The notes beneath the pieces are model-generated. The model searched no databases, was not told where the DNA came from, and saw only the letters and a list, made by a program, of their open reading frames with translations. Shown here piece after piece: positions 10,545 through 29,813 of a stretch of 64,000 bases of DNA. Each line of letters starts with the position of its first letter. The stretch's first letter is position 1. The stretch lies in assembly GCA_013286045.1 (NCBI GenBank), contig JABDGM010000001.1, positions 1-64,000 of the forward strand, given 5' to 3'. This DNA comes from Planctomycetota bacterium. Lineage in GTDB: Bacteria; Planctomycetota; Planctomycetia; Pirellulales; Lacipirellulaceae. The translations under genes were made by a program, and so were the position numbers.

Positions 10545-12764
10545 ATGCCAGACGAAAAGACTTCACGAAAAGAGTCGACGATCCGAGAACCGAATGCGGA
10601 GCCGGGCAAGGCGGAAGCGTCGGATACGGAATTCAGGACGTCGGCCGTGACGGAGCGCGCATCCGACGTCGTGCCGGGCGGTTCGTTTTCAGATGTGCGG
10701 CTGTCGGACTCGGTTTCCGACGTGCAGTTGGCCGACTCGGCGGATGTGTCTGACGTCGAGCTTGCGGCGTCGCAAACTGGGGCTGCTCCCAGTTTTCGCA
10801 TGCCGGCGCCACCGCCGATCTCGCCGGGCGGACCGCCGAAGGCCGCGCCTCCCGCAGCCAAGCGGGAGCAAGGGCCGCTGGCACTGTTGCCGGGCGCTAA
10901 GACTAACGATTTCGAGATCGTGCGGCTGCTTGGCCGGGGTGCGTTTGGGCAGGTGTACTTGGCACGGCAGATCACGCTCGATCGGCTCGTAGCGCTGAAG
11001 ATATCGGCCAATCGCGGCAGCGAAGGGCGGACGATGGCCCGGCTCGAACACCAGCACATCGTGCAGGTGTTTTCGGAGACGGTCGACCCGGATTTCGATC
11101 AGCGTTTGCTGTGCATGCAGTTGGTGCCCGGCATGGGCTTGGACAAGCTCATCGGCATGCTGCACACCAGGCAGGCGGTGGGTGCCATTAGTAAGGACCA
11201 AGAGCCGGCGAAATCGGAATCAGCAGATACGACCGCCGCGCCGTCGGCGCCGGCACCATGGACTGGCGCTGAGCTTCTGGAGATTATCGACCAATCGGGG
11301 CCGTTGCCGACGGCGCTCGATCCCTCGGCGCTGCATGATCGCGAAGCGCTCAGCAAGATGGATGCGATCGAAGCGACCGCCTGGTTCGGCGCGCGGTTGG
11401 CCGAGGCACTGGATTTCGCGCATGGGCACGGCGTACTGCATCGCGATATCAAGCCGGCCAATATTTTGGTGAATCCTTACGGTCGCCCGATGCTGGCGGA
11501 TTTCAACATTTCGTCGCAGCCGGTGGGGAGTGAGGTGAGCGGCGAAGAGATGTTCGGCGGCACGTTTGCTTACATGTCGCCGGAACATTTGGACGCATTT
11601 AATCCGGGCGACCCGACGGGGCATGAAGCGGTGACGGCGAAATCCGACATGTATTCATTGGGACTGGTGCTTCAGCAGCTGCTCGAAGGACGAGTAAGTT
11701 TTCCGAAGTTCGATCGGAAGGCGAAGATGTCTGACACGCTGCGGACGATGGCGGACGAGCGCCGTCGCGCGGCACCGGTGTGCAAGACGCAGATTCCTAG
11801 CGCGCGGATGACATTGGAGCGTACTCTTTGCCGGTGCTTAGAACCGAATCCGGACGACCGATTTGAAAGTGGTGCTGAATTGGCGGCACAGTTGGACGGT
11901 TGCCGCCATCTGCGCGAAGCGGAATTGCGACTACCCAAGTTGTCGGCAACGTTTGCCCCGCTGGTGAAACATCCTTTTTTGTGGCTCGTGATCCTCGTAA
12001 TTCTTCCCCAGATTGCGGGAAGTATTTTCAATATCACGTACAACATGACCCAGATCGTCAAAGAGCTAGACGATCAGCAACAAGCGGCGTTTTGGAAACT
12101 GGTCAATATCTACAACGCCATCGTTTATCCGATCGCGGTGATTGTATTCGTGATCGTCGTGCGACGCGTAGTCGGCAGTTGGAAATCGCTTAAAACGGGA
12201 GAGCCGCTGCCGCCCGGCGAGATCGAAGTAGTGCGGCGTAAAGTATTGCGTCTGCCGCGCTGGATTGCGGGACTTTCGGCGTTCGGCTGGTTTCCGGGTG
12301 GATTTCTCTTTCCGCTCGCGATTGCAGTTATGGCGCCCGTCATTCAACTGGATGCTGCGGCGCACTTTCTGGTTTCATTTCTGTTGTCTGGTCTTATCGC
12401 CCTGGCGTACTCGATGTGCGGAGTGGAGTTCATCGTGCTTCGATGCTTGTACCCTGCATTGTGGCGGGATACGAAGAACTTCTCCGAAATTGCGCAGCAA
12501 GAGCTTCGACCGGTATACAAGCAGTTGAACCGCATCGAGCTGCTGGCGGTCTTGGTGCCGCTGGTCGGTGCGATCGTATTTCTGATGCTTGGCAAGATGC
12601 ACGTTGGGACTGCGAACGCAGCCGACAACGCCGCCGCAGAAACCGTCTTTCGATCCATGGGGGCCGCGCTGATTGTGCTTGGCGTACTCGGTATCGACAT
12701 CACGAGGGCAGTCACGAACCACTTGGCGAGCGTCGTCAGGGCGCTAACGAACGCTAAGGATTAG
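10545..12764 (+). CDS. Membrane-anchored Ser/Thr protein kinase
   Basis: 739 residues. The N-terminal 120 residues are low complexity with a repeated (S)DVxL motif (SDVRLSD, SDVQLAD, SDVELAA). The kinase domain spans ~122-455: glycine loop GRGAFGQVY (130-138), VALK lysine (Lys152), HRDIKPANI (299-307) and GTFAYMSPEH. The magnesium loop reads DFN (319-321) instead of DFG, and ~60 extra residues lie between the lobes (200-265). The C-terminal part has about six membrane segments (first ~477-500), probably forming an integral membrane bundle rather than an extracellular sensor. It follows the sigma factor gene and faces the hydrolase gene with 14 bp between the stops. Kinase assignment is firm; substrate and signal are unknown. 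Confidence 0.92.
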   Translation: MPDEKTSRKESTIREPNAEPGKAEASDTEFRTSAVTERASDVVPGGSFSDVRLSDSVSDVQLADSADVSDVELAASQTGAAPSFRMPAPPPISPGGPPKAAPPAAKREQGPLALLPGAKTNDFEIVRLLGRGAFGQVYLARQITLDRLVALKISANRGSEGRTMARLEHQHIVQVFSETVDPDFDQRLLCMQLVPGMGLDKLIGMLHTRQAVGAISKDQEPAKSESADTTAAPSAPAPWTGAELLEIIDQSGPLPTALDPSALHDREALSKMDAIEATAWFGARLAEALDFAHGHGVLHRDIKPANILVNPYGRPMLADFNISSQPVGSEVSGEEMFGGTFAYMSPEHLDAFNPGDPTGHEAVTAKSDMYSLGLVLQQLLEGRVSFPKFDRKAKMSDTLRTMADERRRAAPVCKTQIPSARMTLERTLCRCLEPNPDDRFESGAELAAQLDGCRHLREAELRLPKLSATFAPLVKHPFLWLVILVILPQIAGSIFNITYNMTQIVKELDDQQQAAFWKLVNIYNAIVYPIAVIVFVIVVRRVVGSWKSLKTGEPLPPGEIEVVRRKVLRLPRWIAGLSAFGWFPGGFLFPLAIAVMAPVIQLDAAAHFLVSFLLSGLIALAYSMCGVEFIVLRCLYPALWRDTKNFSEIAQQELRPVYKQLNRIELLAVLVPLVGAIVFLMLGKMHVGTANAADNAAAETVFRSMGAALIVLGVLGIDITRAVTNHLASVVRALTNAKD

Positions 12765-12778
12765 GGCCGGACGGTGTC

Positions 12779-13621
12779 TTAAATTTGGGACGCAACGGTC
12801 TGGTCAACCCAAGCAGTCAAATCGTCGAAATAGCGGCTGGGATCGCGTTCGAACTCAAGCGTGTGGGCCGCGTTGCCGTATTCGATCAGCATCTTGTGGC
12901 GGCTTGGGATGCGGGCGAAATAGTCTCGCGTGGGCGGATTGTCCACGATTCGATCCTGGCCGGCAAGAACGAGAAGTGTTGGCAGGTGAAGGAACGTGGC
13001 CGAGTCGCGAGCATAGCGCGTGAGTTTGCGATCCTCCTGGGCGAACCGCCAAGTGACTTTGCGGAGCGCGAGTGGATCGGTGGCGATGAAATCGCGCCAT
13101 TTGGGCGAATCGGTGAACAATTCGGGGCGCTGGAGCGGGATTGTCACGCGGCGCTGTTGGAGTCGTGCGGGTGCGGGAGCTGCGAGTAACAGTCTCTTCA
13201 GTGGCCCGGGCATGTAGGGGGAGTAAATGCCGGGGCAGATGAGCGCGACACCTGCGAGCAGGCCTGGGTAAGTCCGCGCGATGGCGGCGGCCAGTTTTCC
13301 GCCCCAGCTAATTCCGCAGAGGATCGTGGGGAGCGTGGGGTCGATGAACGCGGCGACGTCGTCGATCCAAGTGCGCCAGTTGTCGACGTCAGCAACTTGA
13401 TCGCCGTTGAGGCCGGAGCCGCGGCGGTCGAGGAACGCGACGTCGAAACCGGCAGCGGCCAGGAACTCGGCCGACTGATCGTACCAACCACCGTGGCTGG
13501 TGATGCCATGCAAAAACACGACACGTGCGGCGGGTTTTGCTGGCGCTTTCCATTTGCGCACAGCCAAACGCTGGCCGCCACTGGCGGAATAGAACTCGAT
13601 ACGGGGAGGGGAAACAGACAC
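12779..13621 (-). CDS. Alpha/beta hydrolase, monoacylglycerol-lipase-like
   Basis: 280 residues, GTG start. The alpha/beta hydrolase fold shows HG in the oxyanion region (VVFLHGITSHGGWYDQSAE), the nucleophile elbow GISWGG with Ser105, an acid in AGQDRIVDN and the catalytic histidine in AAHTLEF. This arrangement resembles monoacylglycerol lipases/lysophospholipases (Hydrolase_4), which cleave esters of fatty acids. It is the last gene of the minus-strand cluster, 130 bp after the enolase-superfamily gene, so it may hydrolyse an ester or amide made by the PKS/GH3 enzymes; that is inferred from context. Confidence 0.85.
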   Translation of the reverse strand: MSVSPPRIEFYSASGGQRLAVRKWKAPAKPAARVVFLHGITSHGGWYDQSAEFLAAAGFDVAFLDRRGSGLNGDQVADVDNWRTWIDDVAAFIDPTLPTILCGISWGGKLAAAIARTYPGLLAGVALICPGIYSPYMPGPLKRLLLAAPAPARLQQRRVTIPLQRPELFTDSPKWRDFIATDPLALRKVTWRFAQEDRKLTRYARDSATFLHLPTLLVLAGQDRIVDNPPTRDYFARIPSRHKMLIEYGNAAHTLEFERDPSRYFDDLTAWVDQTVASQI

Positions 13622-13751
13622 GGAGTAGGCGCGGCGGGGATAGCGGCGAGTGAAGCGAGGCGGGCTATATCAATTTTAGCACCGGAAACGACCACTTGCT
13701 TGGCAATAGGCGGTATTGGCTATAAGCGGGGGAAACGTGCGGTGGCGCCGT

Positions 13752-14930
13752 TTAGCCGAGCCTGAATTCCTGCGTTGCCCGAGTTTGCTCGCGGAGCACC
13801 GATTCGTTCACGGTAATCCCTAGTCCCGGCTTCGTGATGGGACGAGCGCGACCGCCGTAGCCGAACGTCAAATCCTCGTTCGTCAGCAAGCGGCTGAAAA
13901 GATACCGATCGTAGGAACCTTCGAGATAGCGGATATTGGCGATGCGATGGGCCCAATGCCGGCCCGCGGCCGACAAGATTCCCGACTCGCCGGGGTGACA
14001 TCCGAGTTGATATCCGAGGCCGGCCGCTTGTGCCGTGGCCGCCAAGCGGGCGCTGTTCAGGAGCCCGCCGCACTTCGAAAGGCGGATGTTGAATAGATCG
14101 CACGTTTTATTGGCGATGGCGGCGTTGGCATCCACGATGCTGGTAAGCGATTCATCGAGCATGATTGGGACTGCGATCTGGCTGCGCAAATCGGCAAGCC
14201 GCGCGACTTCGGCGTGGGGCAGTGGCTGTTCGATGCAGCTGATGTGGTAGCGCAACAGCGGCTCGAATTTGGCGATTAGACTATCGGCGTGCCACGCTTC
14301 ATTGGCGTCCAAATGCAGGTCCATTCGTGGGCCGATCCAACGGCGAATCGTACGGAGGCGAGTTGCGTCGTCATCACCGGGGGCGCCAACTTTTACCTTG
14401 CAATCCGCGAAACCATAGACGCGGCGAATAAACGCCTTACGTGCTAACTTTCGGTTACCGGCGTCGATGACGACGCCATAGCGCATCACGTCGTTCTTGG
14501 TCGTAATCTGCCGGGCGACGTCGAAATGGTCGAAGATCGCGCTCACAGGCTCGGAGAAAACGCGGCCGTACGCATCCAAAATGCTTAGCTCGACCGCGCA
14601 TCGGAGGGCGTTGCCATGACAGCTTCGCCGGTCGTCGCCGACTGTGGCGGGTTGAAAGTTCTCACACAGCTTGATGACTTCCGACCAATTACTGCACTCG
14701 GCCGAAAGCTGCTGTGCGAGTGGCGTTTGAGCGAGTTGCGCCAGACAACCTTCTGGAGTTTCGCCAGTGACGTAGCTCCGTGGAACACCTTCGCCCCAAC
14801 CGGTCGTGCCGTCCCTCAATTCGCAACGAACGATTACGTTGTCGCTGTCGTGTCGAGTTGCGGAAGCGTGCGCAAAGGATCGCTTCAGCGGCAAGCGGAC
14901 GACATGCGCCGTGAGTCGTCGGATGCGCAT
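13752..14930 (-). CDS. Enolase-superfamily enzyme (muconate lactonizing / dipeptide epimerase-like)
   Basis: 392 residues with the two-domain enolase-superfamily layout: an N-terminal capping domain (to ~125) and a barrel. Visible catalytic parts are Lys178-x-Lys180 (DCKVKVG), metal ligands Asp208 (HLDANEAW), Glu234 (IEQPLP) and Asp259 (MLDES), and the opposite base Lys286 (RLSKCGG). This is the MLE subgroup pattern, used by cycloisomerases, o-succinylbenzoate synthase, N-acylamino acid racemases and dipeptide epimerases. The exact reaction cannot be read from motifs. Being 58 bp downstream of a GH3 acyl-amino-acid-ligase-like gene makes an epimerase or racemase acting on an N-acyl amino acid attractive, but this is inference. 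Confidence 0.85.
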   Translation of the reverse strand: MRIRRLTAHVVRLPLKRSFAHASATRHDSDNVIVRCELRDGTTGWGEGVPRSYVTGETPEGCLAQLAQTPLAQQLSAECSNWSEVIKLCENFQPATVGDDRRSCHGNALRCAVELSILDAYGRVFSEPVSAIFDHFDVARQITTKNDVMRYGVVIDAGNRKLARKAFIRRVYGFADCKVKVGAPGDDDATRLRTIRRWIGPRMDLHLDANEAWHADSLIAKFEPLLRYHISCIEQPLPHAEVARLADLRSQIAVPIMLDESLTSIVDANAAIANKTCDLFNIRLSKCGGLLNSARLAATAQAAGLGYQLGCHPGESGILSAAGRHWAHRIANIRYLEGSYDRYLFSRLLTNEDLTFGYGGRARPITKPGLGITVNESVLREQTRATQEFRLG

Positions 14931-14988
14931 GGGTTAACTCAGACTTGTCAGCGGGGCTTCTCCAGCGCCAGGGCGAACGCGCGGTGCA

Positions 14989-16692
14989 CTATCGCCCAAC
15001 GGTACCGCCAGCCATTACTTGGGGCGCGGAGAACGCGGCTGAATTGGAAGCGGGGCTCATGACGCGATCCGCGAATTCAAGATCCTGCACGAGGTAAATG
15101 TGCTTGTACTCTTCGAAATTTCCGCGGACGCTGGTCTTCTCCGCACGCATGCGGCGCCACGTGCCCGCGGGCACGTTTCTTACCTGGGCTGGCAGCAGTC
15201 GTCCGCTCGCGCACTTGTCTGCGTATTCTTCGTTGAGTTCAGAAAGGTTTCTTTGGAAGCCGGACGCCAATTCAGTTTCGCGACCCCGATGAACGTTCTG
15301 TTCCATCAACAGGACGTATCGCGGCTGGGCGTCTTCCATAATCGGCGCAACGGTGAAGAAATCGACGGGGACCGACAATTCGGAAAATGTTCTTTCAACC
15401 GCCCGAACAACCTGATATTCGCTCAACTTTTCGCCCGTCAGGCTGGCGAAGTTTTTACCTTTGTTGAGGAATTCCAAGAGTGGCGCTTGGCCTTGGAAAC
15501 CAACGCAACGGACGACGTCGTGTATGTTGTAGCGATATAAACCGCCCGAGGTGGTAAGCAGGATGTAATAGTCTCGATCGACCTCCAGCTCGTGCGCTTC
15601 CAGCACGTTCGGAGAGGGCGTGCCAAATTCCTCGACTGGGATGAACTCGAAGAAGTGGTGCGTGTAATCGAGCATGCCGGCGGGGGTGTTGTCCGCCAAC
15701 GGGATTGTCATGCGGCCTTCGCTTGCGGAAAGGCCGTGATCGCGAATTGCGGCGTCTCCGTAAAGCTCTGCTAGCCGCGGCAAGAAAATTCCAATCGAAC
15801 CGCCGGTCCAAACGGCGACGACCGAGAGATCTGGCCACGCATGCTTCGGCAACAACGTGCCGTGCTGATCGACCAATCGTTCGAGCTCTTGCGCACGTTT
15901 CGGCCGCGGTTTTGCGATCTTCCGGCTCAACTGGTCGCGCACGTTGGCGGGAATATCGCAAGTGAGTGTGCCATCGTGGATATCGCGGATGAGCGACTCA
16001 CGGTCGTGGTTTGCACGCCGCGCAAATTCCACCAGGGAGCTGGGGTTGGCGGTGACGATCATGCCAACCTTGCGCGAGGCAAGGGCAAACCGCAGCGCTG
16101 TGTAATGTTTGGCCGCGGCATCGTGAATGCGCGTGGTCGCGGAAGGGGGCAAGAACATCGTGTCGGCGATTGCCGGACGCGTCGCGGCGGCGAGACCGCT
16201 GATCTGTCCGCACGGCAATCCGCAAGGCGCTTTGTATTGTTGCCAGTCGCTGGAAAGCTGCAGGCTCTTGCGGAATAGCAACTCGGGGTAGTCACCGTAA
16301 ACGCCGGTGCCCCACAGTTGCCAGCCCTCCCTATACTCGCGAAAAAGTTCTGCGGTAATCGGGAGCCGCTTAGGATCGCCGGTCGTGCCGGAGGTCATCG
16401 CGAACATCAGCACCTTGGTGCCGGATGCGAACATGGCCGAGGTGTCGCCGTTCAACACCTTTTCGATGTAAGGGCGATGGTCCTCATAGCTCATTACGGG
16501 CACGCGGGCCCGGAAATCGGCGACAGTGCGAATATCGGCGAAACCGTAGTCGCGGCCGAACTGGCTGTTTGCGTTACGCCCAATTTTGGCCAGAAGCGTA
16601 TTTCGCTGAGTCTCTCGCGCATGGTCGGCGTTGCTCACGAAGTGGCGCAATCGCGATCGCAACCAAGCCAGGTATGCATACCGCACAATCAT
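14989..16692 (-). CDS. GH3 (auxin-responsive promoter) family acyl-adenylating enzyme
   Basis: GH3 proteins are adenylate-forming enzymes; plant members join carboxylic acids such as auxin or jasmonate to amino acids. Here the three ATP motifs are visible: TSGTTG (residues 100-105), HGLSASEG (319-326) and LYRYNIHDVV (385-394). The length of 567 residues is normal for bacterial members. The ATG at 16692 gives the usual N-terminus; an in-frame GTG at 16746 would add 18 residues. The gene lies between the PKS and the enolase-superfamily gene on the same strand. I infer it activates the PKS-derived acid and couples it to an amine, probably an amino acid. Family assignment is firm, substrate unknown. 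Confidence 0.88.
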   Translation of the reverse strand: MIVRYAYLAWLRSRLRHFVSNADHARETQRNTLLAKIGRNANSQFGRDYGFADIRTVADFRARVPVMSYEDHRPYIEKVLNGDTSAMFASGTKVLMFAMTSGTTGDPKRLPITAELFREYREGWQLWGTGVYGDYPELLFRKSLQLSSDWQQYKAPCGLPCGQISGLAAATRPAIADTMFLPPSATTRIHDAAAKHYTALRFALASRKVGMIVTANPSSLVEFARRANHDRESLIRDIHDGTLTCDIPANVRDQLSRKIAKPRPKRAQELERLVDQHGTLLPKHAWPDLSVVAVWTGGSIGIFLPRLAELYGDAAIRDHGLSASEGRMTIPLADNTPAGMLDYTHHFFEFIPVEEFGTPSPNVLEAHELEVDRDYYILLTTSGGLYRYNIHDVVRCVGFQGQAPLLEFLNKGKNFASLTGEKLSEYQVVRAVERTFSELSVPVDFFTVAPIMEDAQPRYVLLMEQNVHRGRETELASGFQRNLSELNEEYADKCASGRLLPAQVRNVPAGTWRRMRAEKTSVRGNFEEYKHIYLVQDLEFADRVMSPASNSAAFSAPQVMAGGTVGR

Positions 16693-16746
16693 GTTATTGC
16701 CTAAAAGCGACGGGGAAAATCGTGGCAAGGTAGGGGACTTAAGCAC

Positions 16747-17061
16747 CTGAAGCCCAACGGAACCGAGGAACTGCGTTACCGCGAACCCCCCGAAACCGCC
16801 GCAACTGGACTCAAAGTACTCGTTTAAAAAGGATCGGAGAACCCACCGTGGCGAGGTGAGACCATAACATTAAGCAACGATAGCACCCAAAATCTAGTGG
16901 TGCCGGTCGAATCAGAAAGATTGATTGGGTGTGCAAATTTTGTAGTCATTCGTAAATTTTTACCCAGGCAGAGCCGTCAATGAGAGCTATATTGTCCTTC
17001 TTTGGGGGACGTCGCAGTCGATAAGTTCAGCGGGCGCAACGAATTACGCCAGGCGGACCGC
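16747..17061. other. 315-bp gap between PKS stop and GH3 gene
   Basis: No ORF with coding character. The stretch 16915-16990 is AT-rich for this genome and may hold a promoter for the GH3-enolase-hydrolase genes. On the minus strand a TTGACG is visible (near 16976-16981), but no convincing -10 box follows at the right spacing. The gap means PKS and GH3 need not share one transcript. Confidence 0.4.
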
Positions 17062-20000
17062 TCATTTTAGGGCCGCGGAAGCTGTGGTCGAAATTGGCCG
17101 GTCGGCGTCTAGAAGGGGTGTCAGAAGACGCCCAATTCGTGCCGCAGATTCTCCAAACATCATCGTAAAATGGTCGCCTGGCAACCTGTGAATTTCTACC
17201 GCTTGGCCAATTTGACGCGACCAGCCGAGATCGACGTCGGCGGGGGGCGTGCGGCCTGAAAGCTCGGCCAACGCTTCGCGGGTTTCCGGGGTAAAGAACT
17301 GGACCGTGATGGTTAGCGGATTCGGCCGGTAGCTTTGCAATACACGGACATTCGCCTGGCCAACCGCAACTAGATTGCGAACGAATTCGATTGGCGTTTC
17401 CGCGGGTAGCATTCCGGATTGCCGCGCTTCCTCCACCGCGGCAGCAAAACGTTCAGAGGGTGGCAGGGTCGAGAGTCTTTGGAAATCGATACGAACGTCG
17501 GCACCCGCGCAGCGATTGGCGAAATTGATGATATCGCAGAAGAAACGAGCATCGTCTTCCGCGTCGAAGGCATCGCAGAACGAGGGCAGCGGCGAGTCCA
17601 TGAGGGCGAGCATTGCGACTTCTTTGCCATCGCGCTCAAGGGCCTCGGCCAAGGCGAACGCAAACGCGCCGCCAGTCGACCATCCTGCCAGATGGTAGGG
17701 GCCCGCCGGTTGCAACGCATATAAGGCCGGCAGATAATCCGCGATCATTTCCGCAATGGTAAGGTGAGGTGGCAAATCTTGATCGAGGCCGCGCGGCCGG
17801 AAAACGTAAATGGGTTGATCGTTTCCGAGCTGCTGCACCAAGTCCATGTAGTAGCGTGAATCGCCGCCGAGCGCGGGAAGAAGAATGAGCGGCGATCGGC
17901 TTCCCGTTTCGCGCAGGGGCAGGAGGGGAGTCCAGGTCGGAGGCGTTCCAGTTTCGGAAGCACTTGATTCTTCTGTTGAACCGTCAATTCCGGCAGTCAG
18001 CAAGCGCGTGGTTTCCGCGGCAAGTGACTCGATGCTCGGACCTTCCATCAGTTTGGCCATGGGGAGGCTAAAGTCGAGCCGGCCTTCGAGATTGTTTTTC
18101 AGTTCCAGCGCCAACAGCGAATCGAGCCCGAATGTGCTTAGTGGCTGATGGATTTCAAGGGTCCTTGGTTCAACGCCCATGATGCGCGCCAGCTCTTGCC
18201 GAATGTAATCCTGGACGAGCGTTTGCCGCGTTGAAACATCGGCTGCGAAAAACCGCTTTCGAAAATCGTGATCGAGGCGACTCCCGGCGGCGTCTCCCCC
18301 GGATTCTTGGATTTCGGATGCGATGTCCGCCAGGAGCTGGGGGCGACGCGAACCGAGTAGTTTGAGCAAGTCGGCCCACTGGGCGTTCATGACAGCAACT
18401 TGCGGCGCGGGCGTTTTCAAAAGTTTGCCAAGCACATCCAGTCCTTGGCTCGGCTCGATCAGCGCCATGCCACGGGATTTGACCGATTCATCGCGGCCGG
18501 CTTCGGCAGCCATACCGCTACCCGCCCATGGGCCCCAATTGACGGCGGTTGCAGGTAAGCCGGCGCGGCGGCGTTCATGAGCAAGCGCATCGAGGTAAGC
18601 ATTGCCGGCGGCATAATTAGCCTGCCCCGGCGAGCCAAGGACACTTGCAACCGATGAAAACAACACAAAGAAGTCGAGCGGTAGATCGCGGGTCGCAGCG
18701 TGGAGATTCTGAGCGCCTTGGACCTTTGGTGACATGGCGCGATCCAATTGATCGAGCGTCATTTCGCTAAGAATGCCGTCGGCCAAAACACCCGCTGCAT
18801 GGATAACGCCTCGCAAGGGTGGGCAATCGGCGGGCAGTTGTGCCATTGCGTGTTGAAGCGATGCTGCATCTGCCGCATCGCCACGCAACACGGCCACCTT
18901 TGTGCCTTTGACGCGAATCTTGTCGAGTGCGGCTTCAACTTCATGCGTCGGCGCGCGGCGAGCCAGCAGAGCGACGGCGCCGGCGCCTTCCGTGGCAAGC
19001 CACTCTGCCACACGCAGGCCGAGGGCACCCAATCCGCCGGTGATGAGGTAAGTGCCGTCGTTTCGGATGGGTTCGATTTCGGATTGCGGATTGCGGATTG
19101 CGGATTGCTGGGCCGACGGTTCGCTATTCGTGTCGCGTTGTGGGAAGGAAACGACCACCTTGCCGATGTTCTTCCGCTGCGACATGTAGCGGAACGAATC
19201 GATCGTGCTTTCGGCCTCGAACCGTGTAAACATTAGCGGTTGATACTCGCCGGAGTCGAAGTGCCGCATGACATCGGCGAATAGCGGACGGATGTAGGCT
19301 GGCCGCTGCCGCAACATGCGGTCGAGATCGATCGCGAAGTAAGAGAGGTTGTCCTGAAACGGGAGCAGGCCAATCATACGGTTCTGGTAGATATCGGTCT
19401 TGCCGATTTCCAAAAACCGTCCGTAGGCCCGGAGTATGGACAGGCTTTTGCTGATGGCTTCGCCGGGTAGCGAATTGAGTACGATGTCGATGCCTTCGCG
19501 ATTGGTGTCGGCAAGAATCTCCTCGGCGAAGGCCGTTGAGCGGCTGCTATAAACGTGCTTTACCCCGAGCGAGCGAAGGAAATCCCGCTTCGTTTCACTT
19601 CCGGCAGTGGCGAAAACTTCGGCCCCAATCTGCTGGGCAATCTGAATGGCGGCCAGCCCCACGCCACCAGCACCAGCATGAATGAGGACTCGCTCGCCCG
19701 GTTGCATTTGGGCGAGCCGAACCAAGCCGTAGTAGGCGGTAAGAAACGTGATCGGGATCGTGCAAGCCGCGTCGTGGTCGATCGACTTCGGCTTGTGAAC
19801 CAACGCGTATTCGGCAGTGCGCGCATGGGATGCAAAGGCGTAAGGCACGACGCCGAACACCTCGTCGCCGACCTTGAAGCGGTCAACACCTTCGCCAACT
19901 GATGTGACGACACCTGATGCTTCGATTCCCAAGGGAACGATCGCGTCCTTGATGCCGGGATATAAACCGAGTGCTTTCAGCACGTCGCTGAAATTCAGCC

Positions 20001-23000
20001 CCGTCGCGTGGATTTCGATTTCTACTTGTCCGGCAGTCGGCGGCGTGCGATCTACCGGAACAAAGCGGAGGGCATCGAATGAGCCGGACTGTGTGATCCG
20101 CAGTTGGAACGCAGCGTGCGGAATAGCTAAGCGCGACTGGGCAGACGCTACGGAACTTGCATCGTCTGTCGAGCGATGTGCCAGTCGGGCGACGTAACGA
20201 CTGTCGTGTCGGCAAGCGATTTCGCCTTCGTTCGACGGATTTAGCAACTCCTTCGCCAAGGCTGAGGCTTCCAGGTCGGCGGCACGCACATTGATTGATT
20301 CCAGGTCAATAAGCCGCGGACGAAAATCGGGCAACTCGAGCGCTGCAACACGCCCGAACCCGACCATTGGTGATTGTTCGACCGCGATTGGAATGGCCGG
20401 ATCATCCGTTGGAATTGACTGCGCACCAGCAGTAACGAACCAAAGGGCTGGGTACTTCTTAAAGCTTGTGCGCGAAAGTGCTCGAACAAGCTGTAGCGCA
20501 CCGCCGCAACCGAGAGCTACATCGCCCCGGTCATTTCGGCTTTCCGCTCCAGTTGCGGCGACTAAAGATGTTTGGGGGCGGATATCGAGCGACCACAAGT
20601 GCGCGACTCCTCGGCAGCCGCGGTCGCCAAACGATTCTTCGAAAAGCCGTCGATAGTGAGATTCATCGAGCGGATCAATTTTGGCGATTGGTTGGGAATC
20701 GTTGTGACCGTTAGTCGACGCGGTCCGGGGAGACACGTACTCGAGACCTGGCTGAACAAGCACACATGACTGGCCCTGCGACTTAAGTTCATCGGCGAGC
20801 TTTCGGCCGACGCCGCGCGCATCGGCAAAAATGAGCCACGGACCTTCTGCCGTGGTCGGGGCGCCGTTCGAAGTAACTTGAAGGTCCTGCTTGCGCCATT
20901 CGATTTCGTACAGCCAAGACGAAGTGTCGACCGCCCCGGCTGCGGGGCCCGATCTGCCGAGCCGCTGCACCTGGGCACCTTCGAAGACGACCAGAATCTC
21001 GCCGTCGCCCGACAGTAAAAAAACATCGGCTTCGACTTGCTCGGGACTTGGCTTCGAGTCGCTGCTCGTCCGCCGCGCGTAAACAAACAGCGGCTGCTTG
21101 AAGTCGTCAATTTTTTTGCGAATCTCTACACGCCGAACGGCGACGGGCATATACGTATACGGGCTGAATGAGCCGTTTTGTTCTAATGGCACCACACCTG
21201 CAACAGACTGCAGTAGCGCATCGCCGAGCACCGGATGCAGGTGATAGGAGGACGCTTCGCGGGCGATTCCCTCGGGCAAGATGACACTGGCGATGGCGTC
21301 CTCGTCGCCGCGACGCAATTCGCCGAGCATTCGGAACGCAGGGCCGTATGCGAGTCCGCGTTCGAACATGGATTGATAAAACTCGTCCGTCGACCGAACG
21401 GCGGTAGCTCGATCCCGCGCCGCGGCCAAATCGATTTTGCCTGCCTCGGGCCGCATGTTCGACTTAGATTCGTGCGCGACGGTTCCCGTCGCGTGCATAT
21501 TCCAGGCGGCCGGTGGGCCGGCTTCCTCGTCGTTGCGGCTATAAATCTCGACTGTAGATTCGCCGCCCGCTTCCGGCGCAGCGGAGACCTGCACGCGACG
21601 GTGCACGCCTTCCGGCAAGAACATAGCTTGCTGAATCAAGAGATTTCGCAGCTCGTGCCGACCGGCGCCGAACAATTCTTCCGCCGCTGCCAGGCATTGC
21701 TCGATATACGCTGCCGCGGGCGTGACGACCGAGCCTTGCACTTGATGGTCGACGAGGTATGCGGGCGAGTGCATACTCCACCGCGATTCAAAGAGAGCGT
21801 TGCTCCACACGGTGGATAAGGATCGGCCAAGCAATGGCTGCGCAAGCTTGCCGTTCGCTGCTGAGCTGGCGCCGACAACACTTCCTGAGAAATCCGGGGT
21901 GCGGAGTGCGGGATCAACATCGAACCAATGTCGTGAACGTTGAAAGGGGTAATTTGGCAAGCGCAGTCGCTTGCGGAGCCAGGGTCGATCCCACCCCCGC
22001 CAATCTATTTTTCCGCCGCGGATGTAGAACTCGGCGACGCTACCCGAAATTACTTCCCAATCATTTTGCTTTTCGCGAAGCGAAGGGAGCCACGCGATTT
22101 CCAACTTGGGTTCGCAACGACGGCCCATGCCGAGCAGGCTGGCCGAGGGGCCTATCTCAATGATAACTGCGGGCTTTGCTTCGGCGATTCGCGACATACC
22201 GTCGGCGAACTGCACAGCATTTCGCAGATGATCGCGCCAGTACCGAGCTGTGGGGGCCTCGGTCATCAACTGGCCCGTGAGATTTGCTGCCAGCGGCACT
22301 TGCGGGAGGTGGAACTTTATTTTGGATGCAATCTGTTCGAACTCGTCGAGCATTTCGTCCATGAGCGGCGAGTGGAACGCGTGCGATACGTTCAACAGCT
22401 GCACCTGCACTCCGTCCGCTGCGAAACTGGCGACGAGACGTTGGACTTCCTCCGAATCGCCCGAGATGACAGTATTCTCGGGACCGTTGAGCACGGCGAT
22501 CACGACGCGTCCAGCGGCGCTTTTGATCGATTGCGCAACGCGGTCGCGCGAGGCGAACACGACCGCCATTTTGCCTTGGCGTTTCACGCTTTGCATGAGC
22601 CTGGCGCGCTCGGCAATCAACCGCAGCCCGTCTTCCAACGACATGACACCGGCGACGCAGGCGGCAGCGTATTCGCCGACGCTGTGACCGAGCACGATGT
22701 CAGGTTTTACACCCCACGAAGCCCACAGCTCGGCGAGCGCGACTTCTAGGGCGAACAGTGCGGGTTGCGTGTATTTTGTTTGATGGATGGGTGCATTTTC
22801 ACCCGCCGCCGAGTCGGATTTGGGATAAAGGATTTCAAGCAGCGATTGGCCGGCCCACAACGATCGCAAAACGGCATCGCACTTTTCGATGGTCTTTCGA
22901 AACACGGGCTGCGATTCGTACATCTGTCGCCCCATGCCGACGTATTGCGAACCCTGACCCGTAAATAGAAATGCCACGTTAGGACGGCCAATTAACCGCA

Positions 23001-24702
23001 CGGTCGCCTGCTTAACGCCGGCATGCGCTTTGGCGCCATCACTAGCGAAGGTCGCGAGACGCTGCCGCAACTGCGTAGAGTCAGTTGCGGTGACGATCGC
23101 GCGTTGATTGAACTCAGACCAACTTGTGTTCGCGGACCAGCAAACGTTCGCCGCATCACTTTTCGGATTGAGTTCCAAATACTTCGCGAGTTGTGCAGCC
23201 TGTTGCCGTAAGGCGGCTTCGGACTTCGCCGACAGTTTCAGCAGTTGGATCGGACGATCCGCCGCCTCCATGCGGCTGGCCGGGCCACCGTTTTGTTCCA
23301 GCGAGATCGCACGTTCCGGCGGAGCTTCTACGACCAAATGCGTGTTGGTGCCGCCGAAGCCGAATGAACTGACGCCGGCGATTCGCCGCCGTTTAGACCG
23401 TGGCCACGAAATTGGCCGCGTGGGAATTTCAAGCCGCGTGCCTTCCAGTTTGATATGGGGATTGAGCGACTCGAAATTCGCTTGCGGCAAGATCTCTTCG
23501 TGCTGCATCATCAGCACAGATTTAATCATTCCGGCAACGCCCGAGACGGTCTCCATGTGGCCAACGTTGGCTTTTACGCTGGTCACATAAACGGGCGGAG
23601 CTTCGGAGTCCGTCGAGCCAAAAATTTGGCTGAGGGCCATCATTTCGATCGGGTCGCCCAACGGCGTGCCGGTGCCGTGAGCTTCGATGTAATCGATATC
23701 CTGCGGTGTGATATTGGCCTGCTTCAGCGCGGCTCGTATGCACGCCACCTGAGATTGACTATTCGGGGCACTAATGCCGGAGGTTCGCCCATCCTGGTTG
23801 ACGCTCGTTCCGCGGATCACGGCAAGGATATCATCGCCGTCGCGCTCGGCGTCCTCCAAGCGTTTGAGCAGCACAAGCCCGCAGCCTTCGCCGCGGACGT
23901 AGCCATTGGCGCGCGAGTCGAACGGCCGGCAAATGCCTTCGGGAGAAAGCATGCGCGCCTTGGAGAATGCGATCGTGGTTTCCGGCGTGAGGATGAGATT
24001 CACACCGCCCGCGAGTGCCGCATCCGATTCGCCGCGACGCAAGCTCTCGACGGCAAAATGAATGGAAAGCGATGAGCTGCTGCAAGCGGTGTCGACTGCC
24101 GCGCTGGGGCCGTGGAGATCGAACACATAGGACACCCGATTGGCGGCGATCGATAAGGCATTGCCGGTGCCCATGTGGGCATCGATGCGCTGGTAATAGT
24201 CGTCTTGGCCGATGAGGATTTTGGAATAATCGTTCCCGCCGATACCGACGAAAACCGCAGTACGGGTGCCGGCGAGTTCTTCCGCCGGGCGGCCCGCGTT
24301 CTCCATCGCCTCCCAGGCGACTTCGAGAAGCAAACGTTGCTGAGGGTCCATGCGAACAGCTTCGCGCGGAGTGATGCCGAAGAACTGCGGGTCGAACTGG
24401 CCCGGGTTGTCGATGAACGCAGCCCAGCGGACCGACATTTTCCCCTGGGTTTCACCCGTAGCGTCGAAAAAGGCGTCAGCATTCCAGCGGTCTGGAGGCA
24501 CCTCACTCGCAGCGCTGCGGCCTGCTTTGATCAGTTCCCACAAGGCTTGCAGGTTCGGAGCGCCCGGAAAGCGGCAAGCCATGCCAATGATGGCGATTGA
24601 ACCTGGCGTCGGCGGGGGAGCCGATTGGTTCTTGAGGCGCTGTTCGAGTAACTTTCGCTGGGCCTGGGAAAGCCCGGCTAAGCGTGTTGCAAGATCGCTC
24701 AT
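17062..24702 (-). CDS. Type I polyketide synthase, single fully reducing module with thioesterase
   Basis: 2546 residues in animal-FAS-like order KS-AT-DH-(structural KR part)-ER-KR-ACP-TE. KS ~35-460: Cys207 in DTACSSS, His342 in [11 protein letters not shown], His382 in KANVGH. AT ~575-870: Ser674 in GHSVGEY, and HAFH (774-777), which signals malonyl-CoA choice. DH ~955-1245: His986 in [10 protein letters not shown] and Asp1161 in [12 protein letters not shown] ~1535-1853: HAGAGGVG (1675-1682). KR ~1880-2110: GGLGALG (1889-1895), Tyr2030 in [13 protein letters not shown]: Ser2195 in GLDSL. TE ~2258-2530: Ser2342 in GWSTGG, C-terminal His in GDHF. All key residues are present and no methyltransferase is seen, so it should make a saturated unbranched chain, probably iteratively, and release it as acid or ester. 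A GCAATCC heptamer repeat sits in the ER-KR linker. No phosphopantetheinyl transferase is in the window. Confidence 0.95.
19081..19108. repeat. Heptamer tandem repeat inside the PKS gene
   Basis: Four exact copies of GGATTGC (plus strand), with a degenerate fifth unit before them. On the coding strand it reads (GCAATCC)4 and encodes [10 protein letters not shown]-like residues at ~1867-1876 in the linker between ER and KR. The frame is kept across the gene. The same heptamer family recurs in the UbiD-family gene at 33401-33435. Confidence 0.88.
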
Positions 24703-24838
24703 GTTTATTCAGATCGGGCGGCCGGGAAAATGGCCGTGGGCTGCGAAGATAGGCAAAAATGCGAATCTTTTAGCGTATGGGAGATGCCCGAGGCTCGCAA
24801 GGCGACCAGCCAAGGCCCTACTAATTCGGGCAAATTCG

Positions 24839-26527
24839 TCAGGCAGTGCGACGATGTGCCGGAGCCAACGCAGGAGAGAGTTCTGCGGCTTGATAGGCGA
24901 TGATATCGCGGGTTTCCACGATAAAGCGGTAGCCGTGCGAAGCGAGGAAATCCAGGCAGGTGTCGGCATCTCGCGGCGGCATGATGCGATACTCAAATCG
25001 CAGAATGCGCGGTTTCAATCGCTCAAAATTGATCGACCGAATGATGGGCCAGTCGTACCCCTCGGCATCGATCTGAATTAAATCGACCTGGCTCAATCCA
25101 GCTGCCTGAAGGGCGCTTTCCACTGTGTGGCAAAGGACTCGTTGGGAAACGATCTCGGCATCCGCAACATCGTGCCTTAGCAAGTGGCTGCGATCGAACG
25201 AGGCAGACATTGAAGCTTCGCCGCGCTTGCAGTACAGGTCACGAACTCCAGCTTCTTCGGCGATCGCGGCTTCGAGGAGAGTTATGTTCGGTTGGTTACG
25301 GTAGGTATTCTTCAACTGCGCAAATGCCGCAGGCTGCGGCTCGACGAGCACGCCGCGAAGTTTGTGGGCGACTACAATTTCGCGCAGGTCGTCATCGCCA
25401 ATGCCATCGAAGGCTCCGATTTGTAGGAACGTGAGTCTCGGATTCCGGAGCAACTCATTAGCGACTACGAACGGCAAGCAGCTTCGAACTGCCAAGGATG
25501 GTTCGCGAACGATGATCGGCGGCGCATAACTCCTCTGGATGCCTATTCTTCGAAGAAACAGGTTGCGACGGCGACGGCGCGCAGCGGAAGTGAACCAAGC
25601 GGGGGTTAAGCGGCGTCTGACTTCGCGAAGCATTCGTCGCCGCGATACTGGCGGCGTTTCTGCAGCAGAGGAAGCGGGTAATTGAAGATTCGTGTCGGTA
25701 ACAGTGCCAACTCGGGGCGGTTGAACTGCCGGTTCGGCAACTGCGAATTGTTTTTGGTCGTCTTCTCGCCAATTGTTACTTCGCTGCAATTGCCACAAGT
25801 AAGCCTGTTTCAACCAAGACACGTAAGCAACCAGCATGCAGACTTGCACGCCAGCCAAGCCGTCTAAGAACCCAAGTCGCCCGATATAGCCTTGCAAAAA
25901 GCGCACGGGGAATCGAAACAGCAACTGAAACAAGCTCGGTTGGCGGCCCTGAGACTGCCAAACGCGTGCTTGGACGCTCGCGTAGCGCTCGCTCTTTGGC
26001 AGGTACTGCGAGTAGGAGTTGCAGCTGTAGTGTATTAGGCGTTCGCGAAGCCGGCCCACGGCGCGGCCCGGCATCCTGACTTCCGCATGATCGGTAGGGC
26101 CGACGTATCGACCAATGTCTCTTTTGAACAGCCGCAAGAGACTGTCGTTTTTCCATGGGCCGAATCGAACCGGGTGGCCCATGAAGTGATTCAATCGATG
26201 AATCCAGTACCCGTCGCACTTGGGTTCGGATAGTGCGCCGCGAATTTCCGTGGCCAATGCAGGGGAAATCCGTTCGTCCGCATCGAGAATTAGGACCCAC
26301 TCGTGCGTGGCCTGCGGGATGGCCCAGTTCTTGAAGTCGCCGGACGTGCCGTATTCGCGTTCGATGATCCGGCAACCGAGCCCGTGAGCAATTTCGAGCG
26401 TGCCATCCGTCGAGCCCGAATCCGCCACGAGCACTTCATCCGCGATCTGCTGGGCACTGACGACGCACGAGCTGATATTTTCAGACTCGTTTTTGCACGG
26501 GATGATGACGGTGAGCTTAGCAGACAT
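24839..26527 (-). CDS. Fusion of family 2 glycosyltransferase and FkbM methyltransferase
   Basis: 562 residues. The N-terminal ~260 residues are a GT-A family 2 transferase of the LPS-core WaaE/KdtX type: VIIPCKNESENI, ADSGSTDGTLEIA and the metal-binding LILDADERI. A basic linker (~270-345) leads to a C-terminal FkbM-type SAM methyltransferase (~365-540: LTFLQIGAFDGIGDDD, VLVEPQPAAF, VDLIQIDAEGYDW). FkbM enzymes usually O-methylate sugars or polyketides. The stop lies 136 bp before the PKS start, same strand, so the product may be a glycosylated, O-methylated lipid or polyketide; alternatively the gene serves surface glycans. Both domains look complete, so a real bifunctional enzyme is likely. 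Confidence 0.88.
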   Translation of the reverse strand: MSAKLTVIIPCKNESENISSCVVSAQQIADEVLVADSGSTDGTLEIAHGLGCRIIEREYGTSGDFKNWAIPQATHEWVLILDADERISPALATEIRGALSEPKCDGYWIHRLNHFMGHPVRFGPWKNDSLLRLFKRDIGRYVGPTDHAEVRMPGRAVGRLRERLIHYSCNSYSQYLPKSERYASVQARVWQSQGRQPSLFQLLFRFPVRFLQGYIGRLGFLDGLAGVQVCMLVAYVSWLKQAYLWQLQRSNNWREDDQKQFAVAEPAVQPPRVGTVTDTNLQLPASSAAETPPVSRRRMLREVRRRLTPAWFTSAARRRRRNLFLRRIGIQRSYAPPIIVREPSLAVRSCLPFVVANELLRNPRLTFLQIGAFDGIGDDDLREIVVAHKLRGVLVEPQPAAFAQLKNTYRNQPNITLLEAAIAEEAGVRDLYCKRGEASMSASFDRSHLLRHDVADAEIVSQRVLCHTVESALQAAGLSQVDLIQIDAEGYDWPIIRSINFERLKPRILRFEYRIMPPRDADTCLDFLASHGYRFIVETRDIIAYQAAELSPALAPAHRRTA

Positions 26528-26696: not shown

Positions 26697-27845
26697 TTAG
26701 TAGTCCACATCCACCCACTTTCGTTCTCGCGAGCTTTTAAGCACTGCGTCGCAGATCGCGATTTCATTGTGGCCGTCTTGGAAGGTGGAGAAATCACCAC
26801 CCGGGCGAGTGCCCTCGATAAAGCCGTACACATTTCGGAATAGATTTTTGGGCCCGACTGGGTAACCTTCGTTATGCCCGCCAGGGTAGTGGGCGTATTC
26901 GCGGGCTGCGGGATGCAGCAGGCTCGGATCTTTGAGTAGGAGTTGGTTAGGTCCGTCGCGGCGACCGATCCACAACTCGTTCGGCCGCTCTTGGTCCCAC
27001 GCCAAGGCGCATTTACTTCCGTCGATTTCGACGTACAGCCGATTTTTGCGACCGGCCGCACATTGGTTGACGGTCAACGAACCGTGCGCGCCGGAATCGA
27101 ATTCGAGCAGGATTGAGCCATAGTCTTCCGTGTTGATTGCCACGTCTTCGAGGTCTTCAGGCCGTAGCACCTTGCCGGCGTAAGTTTCGACTTCGACTTT
27201 TGGTCGTTTTCGCTTCGGGTGAATCGTTACGAGGTCGGCCATCACGCGGACGATTTTGAGCCCTGTGATGAACTGCACGAGGTCGCACCAATGGCTGCCG
27301 ACATCGGCAACGGCCCGCGACGCGCCGCTGAGCTCCGGCACGAGTCGCCAGTTCCAGTCGTTTTCCAGGAGCAGCCAATCTTGCAAGTAAGAGCCGTGAA
27401 TCGCGTAGATGCGTCCGACGTCGCGAGCGGCCGTGCACATTTGGTGGGCGTGCTGAACCAGCGGCATGTAGCGGTAGTTGAAGTTGATGGCGTTCACAAC
27501 GCCGGCATCTTTCGCCAATCGCACGAGCTCGCGCGATTCAACGGAAGTCATCGCCAGCGGTTTTTCAGAGATGATGTGCTTTTTGGCGGCGAGAATCTCT
27601 TTGTTGATGCCGAAGTGCAAATGATTCGGCGTGCAATTGTGTACGACCTGAATATCGGGGTCGGCCAACAGCTTTTTGTAATCGCCGTAGGCTTTTGGAA
27701 TCGACAGTTGCTTGGCTTTCGCTTGAGCCAGGTCATCGCCGCGCTCGGCGACTGCCGCCACTTCGACAAACCCGAGCCGCCGGATCGCCTCCACATGCGC
27801 GGGACCGATGAATCCTGTGCCGATGATGCCTGCTTTGATCGTCAT
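26697..27845 (-). CDS. Gfo/Idh/MocA family NAD(P)-dependent oxidoreductase
   Basis: The ATG at 27845 (MTIKAGIIGTGFIG) is chosen because it opens directly with the Rossmann glycine motif; a longer frame would run into a palindromic repeat. 382 residues: NAD-binding domain ~1-125 with the EKPLA motif carrying the catalytic-type lysine, then the alpha/beta substrate domain with NFNYRYMP, VADVGSHWCDL and GGHNEGY. Such enzymes oxidise or epimerise sugars, inositols and related alcohols. It shares strand with a PNPOx-like gene and a second Gfo/Idh/MocA gene upstream. Substrate unknown. Confidence 0.9.
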   Translation of the reverse strand: MTIKAGIIGTGFIGPAHVEAIRRLGFVEVAAVAERGDDLAQAKAKQLSIPKAYGDYKKLLADPDIQVVHNCTPNHLHFGINKEILAAKKHIISEKPLAMTSVESRELVRLAKDAGVVNAINFNYRYMPLVQHAHQMCTAARDVGRIYAIHGSYLQDWLLLENDWNWRLVPELSGASRAVADVGSHWCDLVQFITGLKIVRVMADLVTIHPKRKRPKVEVETYAGKVLRPEDLEDVAINTEDYGSILLEFDSGAHGSLTVNQCAAGRKNRLYVEIDGSKCALAWDQERPNELWIGRRDGPNQLLLKDPSLLHPAAREYAHYPGGHNEGYPVGPKNLFRNVYGFIEGTRPGGDFSTFQDGHNEIAICDAVLKSSRERKWVDVDY

Positions 27846-27883
27846 TATTGAAAGCTGGAAGAGAGTTGATGTTCGCAGTTGCA

Positions 27884-27936
27884 CGCAGATTATCGCAGAT
27901 AAAAGGAATTCTTCAATTCATCTGCGTAAATCTGCG
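27884..27936. repeat. CGCAGAT-type inverted repeat
   Basis: Left arm 27884-27900 and right arm 27920-27936 match 15 of 17 when one is reverse-complemented, and the central bases also pair partly (GGAATT with AATTC). Each arm contains two CGCAGAT copies. It fills the gap between the PNPOx-like gene and the Gfo/Idh/MocA gene and could fold in the transcript. Confidence 0.7.
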
Positions 27937-28531: not shown

Positions 28532-29695
28532 CTACTCGACCTTCTCAACTTTCGCCCATTTGCCTTCATCGATCGATTTTTCGACGGCATCGAGCACGGC
28601 GACACATTGGGCGCCGTCGCGGAAGTCGGCCATGATCGTCTTTTTGCCGCCGATCGCGCCCATCAATTCATAGACAGCGTGGACGAAAGTATGTTCGTAC
28701 CCAAGTACGTGGCCCGGCGGCCACCAGCCGCCCACGTAGGGGTGGACGCCTTCGGTCGCCATGATGGACTTGAAGCCTTGGCGGCCGGCAGGGTCGGCGC
28801 AATTGTAGAACTGCAGCAAGTTCATTTCCTCGAAATTGAACACCAGCGAGCCTTTGCTGCCATTGATTTCGAAGCGGTTGTAGTTCTTTCGGCCGGGCGC
28901 CATGCGTGTAGCTTCGAATGAGCCGAGCGCGCCGCTCGAAAATTTCGCCAAGAACAGCGTGGCGTCGTCGACGGTGACTTTTTCCGTCCCTTCGCCAGCC
29001 GTCGCGGTGAGGCCCGCGGATCGGCCTTCGGCCGGCCGCTCCACAATGAACGTCTTTTTCATGCCGACGACTTCCGCAATGTCGCCCACCAAGAAGCGGG
29101 CCATATCAATATGGTGAGCATTCAGGTCGCCATTCGCGCCGGAACCCGCCGCATCTTTGCGAAGCCGCCAGTTCATCGGGAACTTGGGGTCGTTGAGCCA
29201 ATCTTGCAGGTAGGTTGCCCGGAAATGGCGGATCTCGCCGATTTCGCCCGCGGCGATCATTTGCTTCGCCAGCGCGATGGCGGGCACCACGCGGTAGTTG
29301 AAGTTGACCATGTTCACGACCTTGGCCTTGCGGACTGCATCGAGCATTTCGCGGGCGTCCTTCAAATTGAAGGCCAAAGGCTTTTCGCAGAACACGTGCT
29401 TGCCAGCCTTTGCCGCGGCGACAGCCATGTCGTGGTGCAGGCTGCCGGGCGTCGAGATGTCGACGACGTCGATATCCTTCCGCTCACACACTTTGTGCCA
29501 GTCGCTCTCGTGGCTTTCCCAGCCGAAGCGCTTGGCAAACTCGGCGGTTTCATCGGCATGACGGCCGCAGATGGCTTTCATCACCGGCGTCGGATCGGGA
29601 TCGAAGAACTTGCCCACTTTCAGGTAGGCGTTCGAGTGCGCCTTGCCCATGAACTTGGTGCCGATGAGCGCCACGTTAACCGACTTTGCCGCCAT
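28532..29695 (-). CDS. Gfo/Idh/MocA family NAD(P)-dependent oxidoreductase
   Basis: 387 residues from the ATG at 29695, which has AAGGA 6 bases upstream. NAD-binding motif VALIGTKFMGKAHSNAY near the start, EKPLAFN with the catalytic-type lysine, VNMVNFNYRVVPAI, then AHHIDMARFLVGD and GGWWPPGHVLGYEH in the C-terminal domain. It resembles sugar dehydrogenases or UDP-N-acetylglucosamine 3-dehydrogenase-like proteins, but the substrate cannot be read. First gene of the minus-strand trio; divergently placed to the membrane acyltransferase gene with a 118-bp shared upstream region. Confidence 0.9.
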   Translation of the reverse strand: MAAKSVNVALIGTKFMGKAHSNAYLKVGKFFDPDPTPVMKAICGRHADETAEFAKRFGWESHESDWHKVCERKDIDVVDISTPGSLHHDMAVAAAKAGKHVFCEKPLAFNLKDAREMLDAVRKAKVVNMVNFNYRVVPAIALAKQMIAAGEIGEIRHFRATYLQDWLNDPKFPMNWRLRKDAAGSGANGDLNAHHIDMARFLVGDIAEVVGMKKTFIVERPAEGRSAGLTATAGEGTEKVTVDDATLFLAKFSSGALGSFEATRMAPGRKNYNRFEINGSKGSLVFNFEEMNLLQFYNCADPAGRQGFKSIMATEGVHPYVGGWWPPGHVLGYEHTFVHAVYELMGAIGGKKTIMADFRDGAQCVAVLDAVEKSIDEGKWAKVEKVE

Positions 29696-29813
29696 GATCG
29701 TTCCTTTCTCCAGATTCGCAGTGATTGCCGTCCGTACAGCGTACCGGCAGGCTTCGAGGCGTCGCAAGTAGCTAGGATTCGCCGCACGTGGTCTATATAC
29801 TCGACAGAGAGTT

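Follow-up and report, generated by a model that had tools for sequence, protein, structure and literature searches.

A stretch of 64,000 nucleotides from a planctomycete genome (assembly GCA_013286045.1, contig JABDGM010000001.1, positions 1 to 64,000; hereafter the window) carries a run of genes for an alpha/beta hydrolase (P0002), an enolase-superfamily enzyme (P0003), a GH3 acyl-adenylating enzyme (P0004), a type I polyketide synthase (PKS, P0001) and a GT2 glycosyltransferase-FkbM methyltransferase fusion (P0005). By comparing these genes with their relatives, we found that the evolutionarily conserved unit is not the five adjacent genes but GH3, the enolase and an OleD-like short-chain dehydrogenase/reductase (SDR). 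The unit to study is thereby corrected to this GH3-SDR-enolase core. We propose that the core belongs to a dedicated lipid pathway that produces an N-acyl amino acid lipid (or one built on an N-acyl amine) and then remodels it, a reading to which we assign a probability of roughly 45%.

The GH3 and enolase clades occurred in an identical set of 14 of the 297 genomes of the order, and in 12 of them no more than 2 kb separated the two genes. The remaining two carriers kept both genes, though far apart or on separate contigs. Among 60 relatives, GH3 and the enolase were again found in an identical set of nine genomes. The SDR, whose search in this set covered the GH3/enolase-positive genomes and one negative, was present in all nine. 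The three genes co-occurred even where they stood apart (G041, G013 and the source genome). Because the carriers span several families and are patchy within a single genus (G031 without the core; G015, G023 and G027 with it), the core acts like a cassette whose genes are inherited together. The sequence-only reading had held that GH3 and the enolase belong together, and this was borne out. Of the scattering in all relatives that this reading had named as counting against it, the core showed none, and the PKS and the GT2/FkbM gene showed it in part.

In the neighbourhoods that we read, the GH3 loci of relatives showed a compact GH3-SDR-enolase-hydrolase run, and the gene between GH3 and the enolase in close relatives encodes an extended, OleD-like SDR. 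It was absent from the earlier description, as were two further recurring partners, a ketopantoate-reductase-like enzyme (KPR) and an ATP-grasp ligase. In the source genome, KPR lies on contig 41 and the ATP-grasp gene on contig 48. A tblastn search detected no SDR gene in the window, where GH3 and the enolase are only 58 bp apart. An orthologue was located outside the window, on contig 48 of the source genome (G000:C48:6862-7881), which is only 59% complete. The contig-48 SDR is 63-65% identical to the in-cluster SDRs of the closest relatives, which led us to reject loss of the gene. Given this orthologue and the single, in-cluster copy in each of two sister genomes (G001 and G002), the gene has moved rather than been lost. 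The best NCBIfam matches of the cluster SDR were OleD, a 2-alkyl-3-oxoalkanoate reductase (143 bits), and HpnA (129 bits), both far below the equivalog cut-offs of 580 and 368. Unlike in OleD systems, no OleA- or OleC-type gene was recognised in the neighbourhoods read. Separately, two tandem genes of the DIT1/PvcA-like isocyanide synthase family lie beside the contig-48 SDR (L128, 4570-6778), and a second SDR and an ATP-grasp gene also adjoin it. This is possibly a separate biosynthetic locus of the same genome.

P0004 contains the three GH3 domains (N-terminal, middle and C-terminal; PF03321, PF23571 and PF23572), all above the Pfam cut-off, and matched plant GH3 structures with an E-value of 5e-32 at best. 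All three ATP-binding motifs of adenylating GH3 enzymes are present (TSGTTG, SASEG and YRYNIHD), and the S, G, T, E, R, Y and D residues of these motifs were invariant across 18 loci. The plant GH3 acyl-acid amido synthetases JAR1, GH3.8 and GH3.12 thus share the fold and the ATP motifs with P0004; they are distant in sequence, and P0004 is encoded in a bacterial operon that also holds lipid genes and the gene of an enolase-superfamily enzyme. In Rhodopirellula and Aporhodopirellula, three loci (L046, L048 and L049) each hold two divergent GH3-clade genes, one of them behind a PKS. The two flank a hydrolase-enolase-KPR group on the opposite strand. This arrangement suggests that the gene was duplicated and that the copies differ in acyl or amine specificity.

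P0003 carries the residues that define the muconate lactonizing enzyme (MLE) subgroup of the enolase superfamily, namely K-x-K, the opposite lysine and three acidic Mg ligands. In an alignment of the window sequence with those from 21 loci, including non-planctomycetes, K178-x-K180, D208, E234, D259 and K286 were invariant (22/22). Its AlphaFold2 model (pLDDT 93.9) best matched the N-succinyl Arg/Lys racemase 2P88 of Bacillus cereus (Z 45.2, root mean square deviation 2.3, 366 residues), and profile comparison likewise identified this racemase as the closest solved relative. P0003 shares the fold and catalytic residues of N-acyl and N-succinyl amino acid racemases, neither of which is exclusive to that function. 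Taken together, the residues and the model make P0003 a candidate N-acyl amino acid racemase or epimerase. It is only 27% identical to 2P88, and its clade differs from 2P88 by a distinct conserved loop, QLGCHPGE[ST]GILSAAGRH, by an EGS motif and by the GH3 gene that always accompanied it in the genomes of the order that we searched.

The fourth member of the run is a frequent partner. P0002 has a Ser-Asp-His set (the serine in GISWG, the aspartate in GQDRI and the histidine in AAHTLE). A scan for the GH3 clade in one genome per species yielded 80 loci. The enolase was within reach at 33 of them, on the same strand at 30, and many of the other loci lie on truncated contigs. Aeoliella straminimaris, Rhodopirellula rubra and Singulisphaera acidiphila are culturable carriers. 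A P0002 orthologue was found near 22 of the 33 GH3-enolase loci and at none of the loci without the enolase.

What the analysis shows is the genes with their linkage, domains, folds and active sites, and the strict co-inheritance of GH3, SDR and enolase. From these we infer the following reactions, their substrates and order, and the part played by the PKS. From malonyl units, the PKS would assemble a saturated, unbranched chain, which its own thioesterase (TE) would free as an acid. GH3 would adenylate the free acid with ATP and then pass the acyl group on to an amino acid, at its amine. The resulting N-acyl amino acid would lose its alpha-proton to the enolase-superfamily enzyme, which would epimerise it. 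The SDR, encoded elsewhere in the source strain, would adjust a keto or hydroxy group of the chain or headgroup, possibly one at position 3 (3-oxo or 3-hydroxy). The hydrolase would add or remove an ester- or amide-linked group; it could either acylate or deacylate. As a joint function of GH3 and the enolase, the simplest is to acylate an amino acid and then invert its stereocentre. The sequence-only reading had arrived at the same chemistry, which is consistent with the nearest structure being that of an N-succinyl-amino-acid racemase and with the precedent of OlsH. To make N-acyl ornithine, this enzyme, the only planctomycete GH3 with described biochemistry, requires free fatty acid, ATP, Mg and ornithine but neither ACP nor CoA (PMC12493201). 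A TE-ended PKS, or a type II set with a hydrolase, before GH3 fits this scheme because OlsH uses a free fatty acid.

The supply of acyl chains to GH3 seems to recur, since two unrelated chain-builders precede it in different orders. In Pirellulales, the type I PKS, KPR and the ATP-grasp protein recur beside the core. In Isosphaerales, a FabZ-ACP-FabZ-KS-KS set and a membrane alpha/beta hydrolase stand directly before GH3 in place of the PKS. The profile of the ATP-grasp partner (A3) matched carbamoyl phosphate synthetase (7e-14) and the L-amino acid ligase BL00235 (6e-6) in the PDB; as a single sequence, the protein gave no Pfam match.

P0001 is a single module with catalytic motifs in every domain, including DTACSSS, EAHGTGT, GHSVGE and HAFH, which agrees with the earlier description of a complete fully reducing PKS with its own TE. 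The HAFH motif points to a malonyl-specific acyltransferase. With the full motif set, the product is most naturally read as a fully reduced acid without branches that the enzyme's own TE sets free. Given its one module with its own TE, P0001 is predicted to be an iterative fully reducing type I PKS. Orthologues were present in eight of the nine GH3-positive relatives versus about 15 of the 60 overall, and we regard the PKS as a plausible, not obligatory, acyl supplier.

The shared distribution of the two clades speaks for the proposed pathway: if they were distributed independently, the chance of identical sets of 14 among 297 genomes would be 1/C(297,14), about 3e-24. Several observations weigh against the pathway. 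This figure overstates independence because the co-occurrence is partly that of one transferred or inherited cassette. The MLE subgroup also includes cycloisomerases, o-succinylbenzoate synthases and dipeptide epimerases, and their structures score within a few Z units. A full-length PKS is present without GH3 in six genomes (G003, G007, G021, G026, G031 and G047) and is encoded away from GH3 in three others (G015, G023 and G027). No chain-builder stands beside the GH3-enolase pairs outside the planctomycetes.

The strongest rival explanation is that the window holds two neighbouring systems. The PKS and GT2/FkbM would make their own (glyco)lipid, and the GH3-SDR-enolase-hydrolase set would use housekeeping fatty acids to make a different compound, having only been inserted alongside in this genus and a few others. 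The GH3-less genomes and separate loci of the PKS, together with the PKS-free pairs of other phyla, speak for this. The PKS locus of G027 lacks GH3; what surrounds the PKS there is the block also seen beside the window PKS, made up of GT2, FkbM, a pair of Gfo/Idh oxidoreductases and a UbiD-like gene. GT2, FkbM and Gfo thus stay with the PKS where GH3 is elsewhere. The 369 bp between PKS and GH3 point the same way, and because of this gap a common transcript of the two is not established. The adjacency of PKS and GH3 in separate lineages (G002 and G012; also L039, L041, L043, L044 and L100) argues against two systems, as does the different acyl machine that occupies the same place in Isosphaerales. 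On balance, we consider this explanation possible but unlikely. Whichever holds, the PKS is not supported as an obligate member of the unit. Because the G027 locus has the same block without GH3, GT2/FkbM goes with the PKS block; its membership of the GH3 pathway is not supported, and it is probably not part of that pathway. Nor is the idea of the five genes as one unit supported.

In a second alternative, the enolase would act on a carbocyclic or polyketide acid and carry out another MLE-type step, a cycloisomerisation or dehydration of the o-succinylbenzoate synthase kind; GH3 would then activate this acid, either to form an amide or for release. P0003 has muconate cycloisomerases among its best matches by family and by structure, and plant GH3.12, judging by the name of its structure entry, acts on benzoates and offers a related precedent. 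In dipeptide epimerases of the L-Ala-D/L-Glu type, the eighth strand ends in a D-x-D motif. All 22 sequences of the P0003 alignment have E-G-S at the corresponding place, so we rejected a dipeptide epimerase identity, and the missing D-x-D near the barrel end could be taken to favour another MLE step. N-acyl amino acid racemases are not known to have D-x-D either, which weakens that argument. Moreover, the best-scoring structure, 1.9 Z units ahead of the next, is that of an N-succinyl amino acid racemase, and among the neighbouring genes we recognised none of aromatic or shikimate type. This alternative is quite improbable. A menaquinone-like scheme, in which hydrolase, enolase and ligase would correspond to MenH, MenC and MenE, found no supporting neighbour and was retained only as part of a rival explanation.

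The least probable of the rivals is ornithine-lipid synthesis of the OlsH/OlsI type, in which GH3 would make N-acyl ornithine and the alpha/beta hydrolase would be the O-acyltransferase: Singulisphaera acidiphila offers the nearest characterised chemistry, with the same folds in the same phylum and a GH3 gene adjoining an alpha/beta hydrolase (PMC12493201), but we rejected membership of this system on score, tree and partner. P0004 reached 106 bits with the NCBIfam OlsH model NF052613 (cut-off 620). S. acidiphila has both enzymes, its OlsH scoring 991 bits and its window-type GH3 only 53. In the GH3 tree, the window sequence falls within a planctomycete-wide clade, and OlsH, a long branch of uncertain exact position, lies outside it. 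The P0002 alignment with the OlsI candidate in L129 was limited to one 61-aa piece (33% identity, E 2e-5), and P0002 is not an OlsI orthologue. The partners recognised for the window GH3 are SDR, enolase, KPR and ATP-grasp rather than OlsI and OlsG (no search aimed at OlsG was made), and a dedicated acyl-chain builder is often adjacent, unlike in the OlsH/OlsI system.

Adjacent GH3 and enolase genes were also found, with no chain-builder and with every catalytic enolase residue kept, in Gemmatimonadota, Latescibacterota, Lentisphaerota and Phycisphaerae. The non-planctomycete neighbourhoods did not identify the amine substrate. A more far-reaching version of the N-acyl amino acid pathway, which we hold to be doubtful, is that the core marks an undescribed, ancient class of bacterial lipids. 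These would be acyl-D-amino acid lipids formed by post-acylation inversion by an enolase-superfamily racemase, with the GH3-SDR-enolase core supplied by a type I PKS or a type II KS/ACP set depending on the planctomycete, and occurring in several other phyla.

The features of the window are listed in Table 1. The five open reading frames (ORFs) that had been described lie at the stated coordinates, uninterrupted on the minus strand, and their Pfam and NCBIfam identities agree with the families assigned earlier. The GH3 ORF probably starts at Met19, at about 16692 rather than 16746, because homologues begin there. With this start, the intergenic gaps from the hydrolase to GT2-FkbM are 130, 58, 369 and 136 bp.

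Table 1. Positions of the cluster genes and their neighbours in the window.
Feature	Position	Strand	Remarks
Alpha/beta hydrolase (P0002)	12779..13621	-	Hydrolase_4 2.4e-45; frequent partner
Enolase-superfamily enzyme, MLE subgroup (P0003)	13752..14930	-	MR_MLE_C 1.7e-44; core gene
58-bp gap where relatives have the SDR gene between GH3 and enolase	14931..14988		
GH3 acyl-adenylating amide synthetase, putative (P0004)	14989..16746	-	Pfam GH3/GH3_M/GH3_C; core gene
Type I PKS, KS-AT-DH-ER-KR-ACP-TE (P0001)	17062..24702	-	Pfam domains; looser partner, likely acyl supplier
GT2 glycosyltransferase-FkbM methyltransferase fusion (P0005)	24839..26527	-	Pfam; goes with PKS/Gfo block
Gfo/Idh/MocA oxidoreductase (P0006)	26697..27884	-	Neighbour of GT2/FkbM-PKS block, likewise in G027
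Second Gfo/Idh/MocA oxidoreductase (P0007)	28532..29767	-	Same GT2/FkbM-PKS block, likewise in G027

Next to the cluster, P0006 and P0007 (26697-29767) have levoglucosan dehydrogenase as their nearest family, below its cut-off, and the pair is kept beside the PKS block in a relative. P0006 is probably outside the pathway. Just downstream of the hydrolase, on the opposite strand, a Ser/Thr kinase with C-terminal membrane segments is encoded at 10545-12764.

Other loci had features of their own. At L050 (4033-17350) and similar Isosphaerales loci, the type II ACP/FabZ/KS set, the membrane hydrolase and GH3 are followed by a DUF1571 lipoprotein, a response regulator, a HupE-like protein, the enolase and the hydrolase. 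This set stands by itself as a conserved lipid locus of planctomycetes. In Lentisphaerota and Phycisphaerae, a conserved protein of about 450 aa precedes the enolase-GH3 pair (L111, 912-2351; L112, 7469-8827), and a protein that by eye resembles isoprenylcysteine methyltransferases follows it. At four loci (L037, L038, L170 and L169), an enzyme with the fatty-acid-desaturase fold lies beside KPR. Its best NCBIfam match, below the cut-off, is the arginine hydroxylase GntB, and it may hydroxylate the amino acid or the chain.

The stieleriacine pathway also yields N-acyl amino acids in planctomycetes, as proposed here, but its N-acyl dehydrotyrosine route uses NasY (PMC12479983). That paper makes no mention of GH3, an enolase or a PKS, and we rejected stieleriacine-type N-acyl tyrosine synthesis since the enzymes are different. 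On bacterial GH3 with an enolase or a PKS, searches of the open-access literature turned up nothing relevant beyond the OlsH paper and an actinomycete GH3 listed in the rubiginone cluster. No paper found in them deals with a GH3-enolase pathway, in line with the earlier remark that the combination was not known as a described pathway, and the gene set and its product both seem to be undescribed so far.

Bacterial GH3 enzymes are numerous, and OlsH was the only one that we found with a demonstrated function. In the genomes searched across the whole order, the GH3 clade described here never occurred without one enolase-superfamily enzyme, which makes the two a testable functional pair. The pair would give a function to an orphan enolase clade and would widen GH3 chemistry beyond ornithine lipids. 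It would also point to a lipid, not seen so far, that planctomycetes share with a few other phyla.

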